A DNA stretch of 64,000 bases from Eubacteriales bacterium. GTDB taxonomy: Bacteria; Bacillota; Clostridia; Lachnospirales; Lachnospiraceae. The notes under the pieces were generated by a model, which saw nothing but the letters and a program-made list of their open reading frames with translations, was not told where the DNA came from and did no database searches. Location: NCBI GenBank assembly GCA_030533405.1, contig JAUNJF010000001.1, positions 1-64,000 on the forward strand, in the 5' to 3' direction. Within the stretch, counting starts at the first letter, position 1, and every line of letters starts with the position of its first letter. Of this stretch, positions 45,235-49,514 are shown in pieces. The position numbers were made by a program, and so were the translations under genes.

Positions 45235-46567
45235 AAAAGAGGGAATGCAACATTATATGAATATAACGTGTAACCCAGAATGGGTACAAGGCTATGTAGG
45301 AACTTTGATGCAGTATCATGTAGTCCCTTATATGCTGCCATTTGAGTTACGGCAGATGAATGAGGAATGCGAGCTGTATTATCGTTTGCAATATCGCACA
45401 ACTGTTAAAGCGGTGCTAGGTCATTTACAGTTTAATAGAAGAAGGGTGCACCATTTAATCGAAAGTATCGTGGGGGTATTGCAAATGGCAGAGGAGTATA
45501 TGTTTGCACCGGAGCTTGTTTTGTGGAAAGCGGAATATATTTTCATTGAAGCGGATACAGGAAAATTGCAATTTTGTTATTATCCCGATGAACAGTTAGA
45601 CGAAAATGAGAGAGGTAATATACGAGATTTTTTACGAGATGTTATTGAGGTGATGGATAAAAAGGATGAAGATACGATGATGTGTTTGTTATCCTTTTAT
45701 CATCTGATTACGGAACCAGATTGTACCTTGCAAAAATTAAGAGGTTATCTCATGAAACTGGAAGCAAAACCATTGAAACAAATTAGGGAAAATCCAGATA
45801 TGGTTGCTGTAGTAGCAGAAGAGAATGAAATGAAATATGAGAAGGTGAAAAAAAGAAAAGAAAAAAAACAGGAAGCATCCATAAGTGAGGAAGCTGAGGA
45901 AACACGTGGCGAGAAGCTTATAAAGTGGATGGTGGTAGCTGTTGCAACCATTAATATTGCATTCATTATTTTGTTAATTGCGAATGTATTAACATATGAT
46001 TATATTCGATATTTGATTGGTTCTATGGGCGTTTTGGTGGTTATTACGATCATTTATATGAATATGTCAAAAGAGGAAACACCAGATGAAATGATGCAAC
46101 ATTATTTTGAAAATGTGGAACAAACGGTACCTCGTTATGATGACGAGAAAGTAGTTGTGCACCCAGCTTCTGATGAATATGAAGACGATGTGGAAACATA
46201 TGGAGAAACGAGTCTTTTGCGTATATCCGATATGAGTTTCGAAAGACAGACTGTAAAAGAGGAAAAACATGGTCCGCTCATTTTATCTTCTTTTATGAAA
46301 GAAAGATATCCGACGATTCATATCGATTCAAGTACTGTTGTCGGCTGTATGCAGGCAGGTTGTAACTACCTGTTAAAGGAGAGAGGAATTAGTCGTATGC
46401 ATGCAAAGCTCATGCGAAAAAATGACGGATTATATGTATTGGATTTGAATTCTACAAATGGCACCTATTTAAATGGAGAAATTCTTGAAAGTGGTGAGGA
46501 ATATATACTAGAAGAAGGAGATATCATAGCATTTGCGAAGTGTGAATTCCTTGTTGGGCATGAATAA
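45215..46567 (+). CDS. DUF6382/FHA-domain membrane protein of the Tad locus
   Basis: The 450 residues comprise a cytoplasmic N-terminal domain (about 1-200, DUF6382 pattern with HYMNITCNPEW), a Lys/Glu linker, two membrane helices (about 230-285) and a C-terminal FHA domain with GISRMHAKLMRKNDGLYVLD and NSTNGTYLNG. The FHA core residues (Ser, His, Asn) are present, so it should bind phosphothreonine peptides. The start is TTG 45215 with AGGAGGTG upstream; it overlaps the previous gene by 20 bases. It links the pilus to Ser/Thr kinase signalling, by inference. Confidence 0.85.
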   Translation: MLQVGYKKEGMQHYMNITCNPEWVQGYVGTLMQYHVVPYMLPFELRQMNEECELYYRLQYRTTVKAVLGHLQFNRRRVHHLIESIVGVLQMAEEYMFAPELVLWKAEYIFIEADTGKLQFCYYPDEQLDENERGNIRDFLRDVIEVMDKKDEDTMMCLLSFYHLITEPDCTLQKLRGYLMKLEAKPLKQIRENPDMVAVVAEENEMKYEKVKKRKEKKQEASISEEAEETRGEKLIKWMVVAVATINIAFIILLIANVLTYDYIRYLIGSMGVLVVITIIYMNMSKEETPDEMMQHYFENVEQTVPRYDDEKVVVHPASDEYEDDVETYGETSLLRISDMSFERQTVKEEKHGPLILSSFMKERYPTIHIDSSTVVGCMQAGCNYLLKERGISRMHAKLMRKNDGLYVLDLNSTNGTYLNGEILESGEEYILEEGDIIAFAKCEFLVGHE

Positions 46568-46630
46568 GGTTTGCACACGCTGGAGTTGTGTGATAAACTA
46601 AAAATATATTGTTATGATAGCAAGAAGTGA

Positions 46631-46870
46631 ATGAAAAACAGGATAAGAACGGATATGAATGGTATTCCATTTAGGTTTTCTAGTCTTGATTTAGATGATG
46701 CAGAAATATCAAAAGTGTGTCATGAAATAAACACAGTATATTTTGTGAAATATCAAAATAAAAAATTGATTATGCATCGAACCATGGATTCTCAAAAGTT
46801 TTGGTGCATATATTTTGTAGAAAATAGAGGTTATGGAGATTATAATATTATTGAAAAATATTATGATTAG
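46631..46870 (+). CDS. Small hypothetical protein
   Basis: A 79-residue protein with no membrane segment or recognised motif, containing Tyr-rich YFVKYQNKKLIMHRTM and ending YGDYNIIEKYYD. The ribosome binding site is weak (AAGAAGTGA). It ends exactly where the first structured leader element begins. It may be part of a small accessory cluster with the next gene. Confidence 0.5.
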   Translation: MKNRIRTDMNGIPFRFSSLDLDDAEISKVCHEINTVYFVKYQNKKLIMHRTMDSQKFWCIYFVENRGYGDYNIIEKYYD

Positions 46871-46960
46871 GAGGAACACTTATGAAACGAAGTTTCATAA
46901 TTGGAATGTGTTCCGACGACATGGCAGGATTCATAAAATGAATCGTGCCGTTACATATTA
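46869..46960 (+). promoter_or_regulatory. Two-hairpin leader element, copy A
   Basis: Hairpin 1 pairs GGAACACTTATGAAAC (46873-46888) with GTTTCATAA (46892-46900) and GTGTTCC (46908-46914), leaving a 7-base bulge. Hairpin 2 pairs GGCA-GATTCAT (46923-46934) with ATGAATC-TGCC (46938-46949). The element also contains a 19-codon ATG frame (46882-46941) with a perfect AGGAGG site. It lies directly before the gene at 46977, whose own GGAGGAACACTTATGA context repeats the left arm of hairpin 1. Copy B at 48306-48398 is near-identical and inverted. Confidence 0.65.
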
Positions 46961-46976
46961 GAGGGGAGGAACACTT

Positions 46977-47198
46977 ATGACGGATTTAATAAAAAGATTA
47001 AGTGAAATACCAGATGTGTATGATGATTTCGTTTTAGGTGTAATTAATTATGCTAAAAGAAGTCCTGAACATATAGAGTTATTAAATTGCTTCATGGATG
47101 ATGCTTCTGTTTTAGAAACGTCGGACATAATTGAATTTATAATAAAACAGCCTGACTTTCATGAATATAGTGCAACAATCCAACAAAAAGTCGGTTAA
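46977..47198 (+). CDS. Small hypothetical protein behind leader element A
   Basis: A 73-residue acidic, helical protein (MTDLIKRLSEIPDVYDDFVL...) with no membrane segment or recognised motif. The GGAGG site at 46965-46969 gives a clear start. Its upstream region is the copy A leader, suggesting that its expression is controlled together with the capA-like gene carrying copy B. I do not recognise a family. Confidence 0.65.
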   Translation: MTDLIKRLSEIPDVYDDFVLGVINYAKRSPEHIELLNCFMDDASVLETSDIIEFIIKQPDFHEYSATIQQKVG

Positions 47199-47220
47199 CG
47201 ATTAAATTTATATAATTGAA

Positions 47221-47256
47221 AAGGTTGTCTATCGAGAAAATTGATAGGCAACCTTT
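47221..47256. terminator. Bidirectional terminator between convergent genes
   Basis: AAGGTTGTCTATC (47221-47233) pairs with GATAGGCAACCTTT (47243-47256) around a 9-base loop. A T-run follows on the right and an A-run lies on the left. It serves both the 73-residue gene and the capA-like gene. Confidence 0.85.
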
Positions 47257-47261
47257 TTTCA

Positions 47262-48287
47262 TCATTTTTTAACAACAGGTTTTCCATTGGTTTGAAATGT
47301 AACACCCATTGTGCGGCTCATGTTGTTGATTTTGTTAATTACACGTGTTCTGCTTGCACCAGATAAAATCCTAGGCTGATAATCGTTTGTATAGGCAGTA
47401 GATGACAAAGAACAAGGAATGACCTTGATGTCAGATGTCTTTTTTACTTTACCATTTTTGACTGTAAATGTTTGTTGAAAAATCATGGTATCTTTGTCAG
47501 CTGGATTGGTGTTACCACCAAAACAGAAGTTGCCAAGACTGTATACGATGTAACGTCCTTTGTATTTTTCAATACCCTGAAGTACATGAGGGTGGTGTCC
47601 TAATACGAGTGTAGCACCGTCATTGATTGCATTTCTAGCCAGGTTTTTTTGGTTATAGTTTGGTGAATAGGATCTTTCAATTCCCCAATGGAAGCTGACA
47701 ATCACAATGGTTGCACCATTCTTTTTGGCTTTTTGAATGTTAGATCTTACGGTTGTACTAGTCACCCCATTTAAGGCATTAAATCCAAGAAAAGCAATCT
47801 TGACGCCTTTTACTTTTTTGTAGGCTATAATACTGTTGTTGCAATATTTTATTTTGTATTTTTTCAGTGTTGCAACGGTATCTGAATAGCCGTTCTTACC
47901 AAAGTCCATTGTGTGATTGTTGGCTGTATTGACTACTTCAACAGAACCTTCTGTCAAAATGTTTGCATATTTGGCAGGTCCTTTAAAGGTGAATTTTTTG
48001 TAAGCACGATTATTTGAGGTGGTAAGTGTTCCCTCGAGATTTACAATCGTTACATCATCCTTTGAAAATACCTTATGTACTTTTTTCAAAAAGTAAGCAT
48101 CGTTTTGTTTGCCATAAACATAGTTAAAACTGTTGTTGTAGCGAGAATCTACACCGAGTGTGCAATCTCCCGCTGCCGATATGGTTATTTTAGTTGTAGA
48201 TGACTTCTTTTTTGCATATGCTGTTTGTGGGAATAAGCAGGCGCAAAAAAGAAGAAGCATCAAAACATATATACTGCGTTTTTTCAT
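47262..48287 (-). CDS. CapA family (PGA_cap) secreted protein
   Basis: The 341-residue protein has a signal peptide (MKKRSIYVLMLLLFCACLFP, cleavage near AYA), then ISAAGDCTLGVD, VNLEGTLTTS, VVNTANNHTMDFG, IVSFHWGIERS and LVLGHHPHVLQGIEKYKGRYIVYSLGNF. These are the metal-binding motifs of the CapA/metallophosphatase-like family that acts in poly-gamma-glutamate capsules and related envelope functions. No capBC genes are present. Leader element B lies directly upstream. Confidence 0.88.
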   Translation of the reverse strand: MKKRSIYVLMLLLFCACLFPQTAYAKKKSSTTKITISAAGDCTLGVDSRYNNSFNYVYGKQNDAYFLKKVHKVFSKDDVTIVNLEGTLTTSNNRAYKKFTFKGPAKYANILTEGSVEVVNTANNHTMDFGKNGYSDTVATLKKYKIKYCNNSIIAYKKVKGVKIAFLGFNALNGVTSTTVRSNIQKAKKNGATIVIVSFHWGIERSYSPNYNQKNLARNAINDGATLVLGHHPHVLQGIEKYKGRYIVYSLGNFCFGGNTNPADKDTMIFQQTFTVKNGKVKKTSDIKVIPCSLSSTAYTNDYQPRILSGASRTRVINKINNMSRTMGVTFQTNGKPVVKK

Positions 48288-48305
48288 AATTATTCCTCCA
48301 TAATT

Positions 48306-48398
48306 TAATATGTAGTGGCACGATTCATTCTATGAATCTTGCCATGTCGTCGGAACACATTCCAGTTATGAAACTTCGTTTCATAAGTGTTCTTCCTC
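48306..48398 (-). promoter_or_regulatory. Two-hairpin leader element, copy B
   Basis: Read on the minus strand this matches copy A at 82 of 87 positions from GAACAC to ACATATTA. All five differences fall in predicted loops, bulges, the internal mismatch or the linker. It ends about 19 bases before the capA-like ATG and contains an equivalent 19-codon frame (48384 down to 48325) with a GAGGAAG site 7 bases upstream. It is therefore the 5' leader of the capA-like gene. Confidence 0.65.
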
Positions 48399-48476
48399 AT
48401 TATACCATGATAACTTGCCTTTGCGAAATAGATGAATTACAATTATCTAATGAATAGTAATTTGGAGGTAGTTGGA

Positions 48477-49514
48477 TTGCATATTTTAGTGATATTTACT
48501 GGCGGAACCATTGGAAGCACGATTCAGGATGGATATATTTCTACAGATCATAAGAAAAAATACAAGTTAATTGAACAGTTCAAAGAACAGACGGATCAGG
48601 ATGTAACATTTGACGTGTTGGAGCCGTATACGGTGCTGAGTGAAAATATGACAGGCGAATATTTGTCAAAGCTGGGAGCTTGTTTAGAGAGCGTGGATTT
48701 GTCAGTGTATGATGGTGTAATTATGACACACGGAACAGACACGCTTCAATATACGGCAGCAGCATTAAGCTATGCATTTCCTGATATAGAAAAACCGGTA
48801 TTGCTGGTTTCCAGTCAATATGTATTGGATCATTTAGATGCAAATGGTGGCGCTAATTTTGCAGCGGCGGTTACCTTTGTTCAGGAGAAAGCGGGAACGG
48901 GAATATATGTGGCTTATCGAAACGCAGATGGTGTCGTGTATTTTCATAAAGGAAATCGTGTTTTGCCACATTTGCCATATAGTGATGAGGTGTATAGCGT
49001 GAAGGGGCAGTATTATGCATCGATACAAAATGCACATGTTGTAAAAAACGAAGGATATATTGATTTTGAAGAAGAAACAGAAAAGCTCGCACTTCACATG
49101 CCACAAAATTGGAATTCAGGTATATTAAGAATTGCGCCATTTCCAGGTATGGAATATCCGCAACCAGATTGGATCAATATTAGGGCTGTTCTATTAGACA
49201 CGTATCATTCTGGTACGCTTTGTAGTAACACACCAAATATGACTACGTTTTTTGAGGAAGCAGCAAAGCACAAGATTCCTGTTTTTGTGACTGGTGGAGA
49301 TGTGAATGGTGTGGATTATGAAAGTGTAAAATGGTGGAAGGAGTTGCAGGTTGTTACATTGCCAGCAGCCTCTCCGATTGCGATGTACATGAAGTTATGG
49401 ATGGTGATTGATGCGGTAAATGAGATGTCGGAAGATTCGTATCTTTTGGTAAGAAGATGGATGGAGACAAGTGTAAATGGAGACTTTGTAACAGGCGTAC
49501 ATCTTTCAACATAA
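48477..49514 (+). CDS. Asparaginase
   Basis: Type I/II asparaginases hydrolyse Asn to Asp and ammonia. The 345 residues include the first catalytic Thr in LVIFTGGTIGS and the second in MTHGTDTLQYTAAALSYAF, plus PVFVTGGDVNGVDYE. No signal peptide is visible, so it is cytoplasmic. The TTG start at 48477 is chosen because TGGAGGT lies 7 bases upstream; the upstream in-frame ATGs have none. Confidence 0.88.
   Translation: MHILVIFTGGTIGSTIQDGYISTDHKKKYKLIEQFKEQTDQDVTFDVLEPYTVLSENMTGEYLSKLGACLESVDLSVYDGVIMTHGTDTLQYTAAALSYAFPDIEKPVLLVSSQYVLDHLDANGGANFAAAVTFVQEKAGTGIYVAYRNADGVVYFHKGNRVLPHLPYSDEVYSVKGQYYASIQNAHVVKNEGYIDFEEETEKLALHMPQNWNSGILRIAPFPGMEYPQPDWINIRAVLLDTYHSGTLCSNTPNMTTFFEEAAKHKIPVFVTGGDVNGVDYESVKWWKELQVVTLPAASPIAMYMKLWMVIDAVNEMSEDSYLLVRRWMETSVNGDFVTGVHLST

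Follow-up and report, generated by a model that had tools for sequence, protein, structure and literature searches.

Two near-identical two-hairpin elements stand in front of two convergent genes in a 64,000-nt stretch of a Lachnospiraceae genome (contig JAUNJF010000001.1, positions 1 to 64,000; the window). This raises the question whether they are regulatory leader RNAs that belong to their genes, leader peptides, or copies of a mobile repeat, all of which had been considered when the pair was originally predicted.

Two copies of a two-hairpin element precede convergent genes

Copy A occupies 46866..46959 on the plus strand and copy B 48307..48400 on the minus strand. The likeness of the two is far above chance (BLAST E = 3.1e-35), and, as predicted, they differ by five substitutions in the 87 positions between GAACAC and ACATATTA. 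Each copy is a two-hairpin unit with a sequence like a Shine-Dalgarno (SD) site, AGGAGG or AGGAAG, in front. Hairpin 1 of copy A (46873..46914, +) was recognized from the fold and from inverted repeats, and its arms covary across the family. It has the outer arms GGAACAC (46873-46879) and GTGTTCC (46908-46914) and the inner stem TTATGAAAC-GAA-GTTTCATAA. Hairpin 2 (46921..46951, +), also found by folding, contains an inverted repeat at 46923-46949. Folding was better than in shuffled sequences for both copies (z = -6.73 for A and -3.86 for B), with none of 200 shuffles equally good.

The differences between the copies had been expected to lie in unpaired spots only. This was true for the internal pairs, all of which are kept, and for three of the five differences, which are located on the unpaired 3' side of hairpin 1, in the internal mismatch of hairpin 2 and in the hairpin-2 loop. 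It was not true for the adjacent GT/AC difference at the foot of hairpin 2, where the outermost pair is lost, RNAfold predicting five pairs for copy B compared with six for copy A.

Upstream of copy A lies a gene for 79 residues (46631..46870, +), the TAG stop codon of which (46868-46870) overlaps the AGGAGG of the element; copy A directly adjoins the stop. The gene downstream (46977..47198, +) encodes 73 residues. Searches of both proteins against Pfam and PHROG gave no match. At E<=1e-4, two of the 26 genus genomes contain the 73-residue protein, namely its own and G012. Copy B precedes a PGA_cap (CapA-like) gene of 341 codons (47262..48287, -; Pfam PF09587), whose SD (GGAGG, 48295..48299, -) is situated just 3' of the element. 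A promoter-like site with an extending TG (TTCGCA-17-TATAAT, 48399..48427, -) at the edge of copy B is a consensus match only, and such sites were as frequent in the region as in shuffled sequence (12 versus 11.7 expected). The two terminator-like sites of positions 46300-48700 (47218-47258 and 47413-47427) both fall outside copies A and B, and an interpretation of the elements as terminators was therefore rejected.

The elements belong to the GA-cis family

The Rfam scan assigned both copies to RF02987 (GA-cis RNA, entry type "Gene; sRNA"), over the full 88-position model (1-88) and above its gathering score of 34.7 bits (57.4 bits for copy A and 49.9 bits for copy B). The elements are thus not a new RNA family. 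The GA-cis motif was reportedly first found in Coprococcus and is said to have been described in a 2017 paper. With our own model R1, built from 64 elements of many genomes and partly from copy A itself, copy A scored 68.8 bits.

A BLAST search with copy A gave 39 matches at E<=1 in its own genome, and R1 identified 18 copies there at E<0.01, including A and B. Within the genus, Rfam matches were present in 5 of 26 genomes (15 in the own genome and 14 in G020), and within the family in 31 of 397 sampled genomes, where at most about 10 candidates were scored per genome, so that the copy counts per genome are lower bounds. A pattern scan of named genomes yielded 80 listed loci out of 116 stretches. 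Among the matches listed, R1 confirmed 69 of the 80 loci, mostly in uncultured Lachnospiraceae but also in Butyrivibrio and Hungatella; the other 11 listed loci, nearly all in unrelated bacteria, were discarded as chance matches. For the comparisons below, 123 elements or loci fetched from the Rfam match lists (weak matches were among those left out) were combined with 80 of the 89 R1 matches from the pattern scan, and the resulting 203 were reduced to 198 copies once duplicates were removed.

Copies resemble each other more within a genome than between genomes (0.80 versus 0.63; 173 of 197 copies used). The nearest neighbor was a copy from the same genome for 92 of 145 copies, compared with 4.5 after label shuffling (highest value 13). 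Some elements form tandem arrays, the units of which are joined at AGGAGG.

Stems covary while loop and linker are conserved

In an alignment of 64 of 65 selected elements, the covariation score was 0.526, compared with 0.165 for shuffled and at most 0.179 for slid controls; the ten pairs scored stem from the consensus of the alignment itself, which favours the score. Misalignment of the inner stem limited RNAalifold to these 10 pairs, and the inner stem was therefore scored by script. A recognizable loop was present in 162 of 173 elements and absent from 11. In 156 of the 162, the inner stem extended for at least 4 bp beyond the loop-closing pair, with 53 different sequences, compared with 7 of 162 after shuffling. 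The outer stem reached at least 5 bp in 160 of the 162, with 59 different sequences; it was sought across a wide span, and the shuffle control applies to the inner stem only. The sequences of loop and linker are conserved across the family. The covariation of the stems is strong, and the original view that conservation is structural rather than coding is supported.

Hairpin 1 contains few G-U pairs (0.8% of the inner and 1.4% of the outer pairs). Structured RNAs usually have more of them, which hints that the palindrome may act as DNA.

The short reading frame is not conserved

As originally described, each copy contains an SD-like AGGAGG or AGGAAG, an ATG and 19 codons (MKRSFIIGMCSDDMAGFIK in A, where the frame spans 46882..46941 on the plus strand, and MKRSFITGMCSDDMARFIE in B), and the three codon differences between the frames all change the amino acid. 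Across the family, 184 of 198 copies match the AGGAGG core at 5 or 6 of its 6 positions, and in 154 of 198 an ATG follows the core at a distance of 3-10 nt, compared with about 15% by shuffling. The encoded frames range in length between 2 and more than 40 codons. Relative to the loop, all three reading phases of the ATG are represented (111, 18 and 16 copies). A conserved short peptide was therefore rejected, as neither frame nor length is kept among copies, and the leader peptide that had been considered did not hold. The pattern fits a captured start region, of which the mini-frame, with its 19 codons in copy A, would be a by-product.

Copies are placed in one orientation before gene starts

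The position of the elements relative to genes was determined for the 175 of 198 copies with enough flanking sequence. An SD-preceded start of a frame of at least 60 codons was found within 50 nt of the element in 83 of 175 cases on the sense strand and in none of 175 on the antisense strand, compared with 102 of 3084 random positions from the same loci. This one-sided placement agrees with the predicted leader position. The 92 copies that failed the test are partly units of tandem arrays and partly copies elsewhere. In the own genome, 17 of 18 copies were followed by a same-strand frame of at least 70 codons with a loosely defined SD and a start between -12 and +143 nt from the end of the element. 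The exception (C12:13260) begins a tandem pair, whose other unit is also among the 18. The proteins encoded behind the own-genome copies had no common theme among the nine scanned.

Upstream, a same-strand stop codon lay within 30 nt of the element start in 77 of 198 copies, compared with 27 on the antisense strand and 177 of 1967 random positions, and 39 of these 77 stops end 3-5 nt inside the element.

Six genomes (G146, G205, CANQVT, CANRDO, CANQWV and JAFUTQ), chosen post hoc after inspection, depart from this picture, with SD and start behind only 3 of 21 copies; several of their copies are nested within larger repeats. We also note a variant in which AGGAGG is replaced by GTCGG, complementary to the CCGAC after hairpin 1 (loci L262, L223, L291, L231, L233 (CANQVT), L229 and L292). 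It forms part of a bigger repeat, considerably longer than 150 nt, and, according to a gene-start test, does not lie before genes.

Empty sites in relatives and repeated SD regions

A homologue of the 73-residue protein in G012 (40% identity) is preceded by a similar upstream reading frame. The junction there reads ...GATGAATAAAGGAGGTGTTTTTCG-ATG; stop codon and SD adjoin each other, and the element is absent. At copy A, the junction reads GATTAGGAGGAACACTTATGA, element, GGAGGAACACTTATGA-CGG, and the same 16 nt stand on both sides: the left GGAGGAACACTTATGA (46870..46885, +) and the right one (46965..46980, +), which contains the start codon of the 73-residue gene, form a direct repeat of 100% identity.

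Similar arrangements were found at three other sites of the own genome. Before a Clp-like gene (C71), the element is absent in G021, where the end of the upstream gene (...MEEA*) spans the SD of the gene that follows; in the own genome, the upstream gene ends ...TEEEH* across AGGAGGAACACTAATG, and this 16-mer is present again behind the element, where it forms the start of the Clp-like gene. A variant base common to both 16-mers (A for T) disrupts one pair of hairpin 1, which argues for a shared origin by copying rather than for base pairing as the cause of the repeat. Before an AAA gene (C74:202361), G015, G016 and G020 carry no element, and 14 nt (AGGAGGAACGCTTA) are present on both flanks here. 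At pyrB, the element lies between two copies of a 10-nt sequence (GATAGGAGGA), and the reading frame of the upstream gene now continues into the element.

Most of the 25 pyrB loci of relatives are without the element. Degenerate matches were detected in the pyrB leaders of G011 (E = 0.0013; L161, 1695-1760) and G021 (E = 0.012; L169, 2416-2477), and the site is possibly old and shared between species. The remaining R1 matches in the pyrB loci up to E = 1 fall elsewhere, apart from one at E = 1 that spans the start of pyrB in G003. A possible remnant in G001 was seen by eye, not reported by R1. The degenerate elements of G011 and G021 mostly lack hairpin 2.

No R1 match at E<=1 was obtained in 17 loci of relatives at four sites, including 12 PGA_cap orthologues. 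These 12 were examined by eye out of 15 matches in other genomes, one distant match, one fragment and one second distant copy having been left out. The upstream regions of the 12 genus orthologues were too different for the junction of copy B to be placed in them. The start region of the PGA_cap gene (48282-48312) and the left end of copy B (48379-48409) form a direct repeat of 71% identity. The same R1 search covered 22 deoB loci; they add little, since the own deoB copy is so diverged that R1 misses it. The presence of the element here and its absence from the relatives, which are other species, suggest insertion; loss in the relatives is a conceivable alternative.

Whether a copy shares its left end with its own gene start was analyzed for 101 copies with SD and start downstream and no copy following. 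The longest common string averaged 7.9 nt, compared with 6.5 when partners were swapped over the whole set, and 8.1 compared with 7.3 when they were swapped within genomes (none of 500 swaps as high). Identity continued past the SD for a mean of 2.4 nt versus 1.9 (none of 2000 swaps; copies with an SD on both sides and no preceding copy), with at least 6 nt in 9 of 80 copies and 0-2 nt in 64 of 80. A repeat of the full start region thus seems to occur in roughly one case in nine. In two of the tests (with 93 of 101 and 101 of 198 copies selected), an SD on both sides was itself a condition of selection, and the shared SD alone is weak evidence, as the SD consensus could explain many of the 64 of 80 copies that match for only 0-2 nt beyond it. 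The match 5' of the SD was modest once tandem units had been removed (0.71 versus 0.46; 4 of 2000). It was strong in the 93-copy test, partly owing to the last units of tandem arrays. A coarse tandem filter leaves two 8-nt matches 5' of the SD, both of which are excluded from the comparison of 0.71 with 0.46.

Alternative folds of copy A

In copy A, GTGTTCC (46908-46914) can pair over its full length either with 46873-46879 or with 46968-46974 at the downstream gene start, which confirms the alternative pairing noticed originally. When copy A was folded together with the gene start, the minimum-energy form paired GTGTTCC with the downstream site (-35.6 kcal/mol), while the centroid retained hairpin 1 (-34.7 kcal/mol). 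Since little energy separates the two folds, the proposed on/off switch is possible for copy A. It does not extend to the family, because it needs a start region that repeats the left arm, and the repeat continues for at least 6 nt past the SD in only 9 of the 80 copies with an SD on both sides and no other copy preceding. Should a translational switch exist in copy A, it would be a by-product of the repeat.

Proposed insertion at SDs and alternative explanations

We consider it probable that A and B are dispersed palindromic repeats of the GA-cis type that spread in Lachnospiraceae by sense insertion at SDs, with duplication of the SD. A mobile palindromic repeat had been listed as an alternative in the original prediction, and the 18 copies in the own genome and the empty sites in relatives speak for it. 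The element would insert in sense orientation at the SD of a gene and duplicate it, so that the order becomes stop codon or promoter, left SD, hairpin 1, CCGACGA, hairpin 2, UACAUAU-like end, right SD and gene. The SD repeat would thus be created upon insertion, presumably by some mobilizing enzyme acting on the elements. Insertion would be tolerated because the gene retains a ribosome-binding site, and the inserted element would become a structured leader or intercistronic RNA, which may alter translation of the downstream gene. The 5' SD of a resident copy could then serve as landing site for the next copy and give rise to tandem arrays. Because the left SD partly coincides with the left arm of hairpin 1, the sequence of the right arm (...UUCC) is the complement of the target, which may possibly be recognized through this pairing.

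A more far-reaching version, which we regard as tentative and rather doubtful, holds that the element targets the translation start itself: it would find an SD, possibly via ...UUCC/GGA(A) pairing, duplicate the region from SD to start and install a ready structured leader complete with an SD and a start codon, acting as a mobile translational control module across many Lachnospiraceae.

The placement before SDs on one strand only, the strong covariation together with conserved loop and linker sequences, the near-equal folds of copy A and the possibly old pyrB site in three species would also be expected of a vertically kept cis-regulatory RNA, a two-hairpin leader that controls translation by hiding or freeing the SD with hairpin 1. 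We nevertheless think this unlikely, because the nine downstream proteins scanned lack a theme, copies are absent at the same genes in relatives and cluster by genome, the partner for the switch exists in 9 of 80 copies only, and in six genomes most copies lie outside leaders. Random placement and a lack of compensatory changes had been proposed as the mark of a repeat. Compensatory changes and one-sided leader placement were in fact found, and the copies still look like lineage-specific insertions with a repeated SD; this test therefore divides repeat and leader RNA too sharply.

An ordinary REP/IS200-type repeat, in which a Y1 transposase moves DNA hairpins and leader placement results from the avoidance of coding regions, would account for the near-perfect Watson-Crick stems of hairpin 1 and for copies nested in larger repeats. 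We consider it highly improbable, since avoidance of genes alone would not produce 83 sense and 0 antisense placements, and since the mobilizer search, which covered Y1_Tnp, gave no partner: PF01797 had no match in the own genome (G000; assembly 95.82% complete), and R1 detected no convincing element among the 30 Y1 loci that were fetched (best E = 0.4). A leader peptide or small protein, with ribosome stalling in the 19-codon frame as control of the downstream gene, is also highly improbable. The frequent SD core and the ATG behind it are in its favor, but the variable length, the use of all three frames and the amino-acid changes in all three differing codons argue against it. Spread by phages or plasmids was also considered and dismissed: copy A had no match in the phage and plasmid collections, and among five pattern matches in viral contigs R1 reported just one, at E = 0.93, which was taken as chance.

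If insertion at SDs is correct, a catalogued "cis" RNA family would in fact be a mobile repeat, a warning that leader placement and covariation do not prove vertically inherited regulation. The element would be aimed at ribosome-binding sites and leave genes translatable, providing a simple origin of new structured operon leaders in common gut bacteria.

Comparison with known repeats and leaders

Like BOX, RUP, Correia and ERIC elements and MITEs in general, GA-cis is short, base-paired, multicopy and patchy. As in MITEs, similar copies occur at unrelated loci and relatives carry empty sites. The ends of A and B, however, share no inverted repeat of at least 7 nt, and because terminal inverted repeats are missing in A and B, we do not class GA-cis as a classical MITE. 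It also differs from BOX, RUP, Correia and ERIC in targeting the SDs of genes in one orientation, in consisting of two hairpins of the same direction, and in stem sequences that are renewed by covariation between genomes. Copy A resembles leaders that hide the ribosome-binding site in that it is a structured 5' leader, one arm of which can pair with the start region, but GA-cis lacks a gene theme among nine proteins, and the relatives examined do not carry it at the corresponding gene. Unlike REP/RAYT systems, it occurs in a genome without a Y1 transposase (PF01797), and unlike leader peptide attenuators, its copies have no conserved short peptide frame. Small repeats and MITEs can alter the expression of their neighbors, according to two reports (PMC3049150, PMC10969869). 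The portions of the literature available to us that name GA-cis do not mention insertion at SDs, repeated SDs or genome-specific spread, and no statement of SD-targeted insertion was found in the literature searched, which did not include the original description of the motif.

Partial and variant copies

Partial copies that consist of hairpin 1 or hairpin 2 alone also precede genes (e.g., L016, L019 and L025). In the own genome, L019, L025 and L021 contain hairpin 2 only, the first two immediately in front of gene SDs and the third in front of a further copy, and all three look like decayed elements. The element before a gene of the streptomycin adenylyltransferase family (PF04439; L038:1657-2511 on contig C20 of the own genome) has a doubled hairpin 2. 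A longer alternative hairpin 2 of the type AAGGAGG..CCCAC..GTGGGAGGA..CCT occurs at L372, L373 and L377 of the own genome and at L140 of G115, and L131 of G192 carries a hairpin 2 similar to it. Hairpins 1 and 2 may thus be exchanged as modules.
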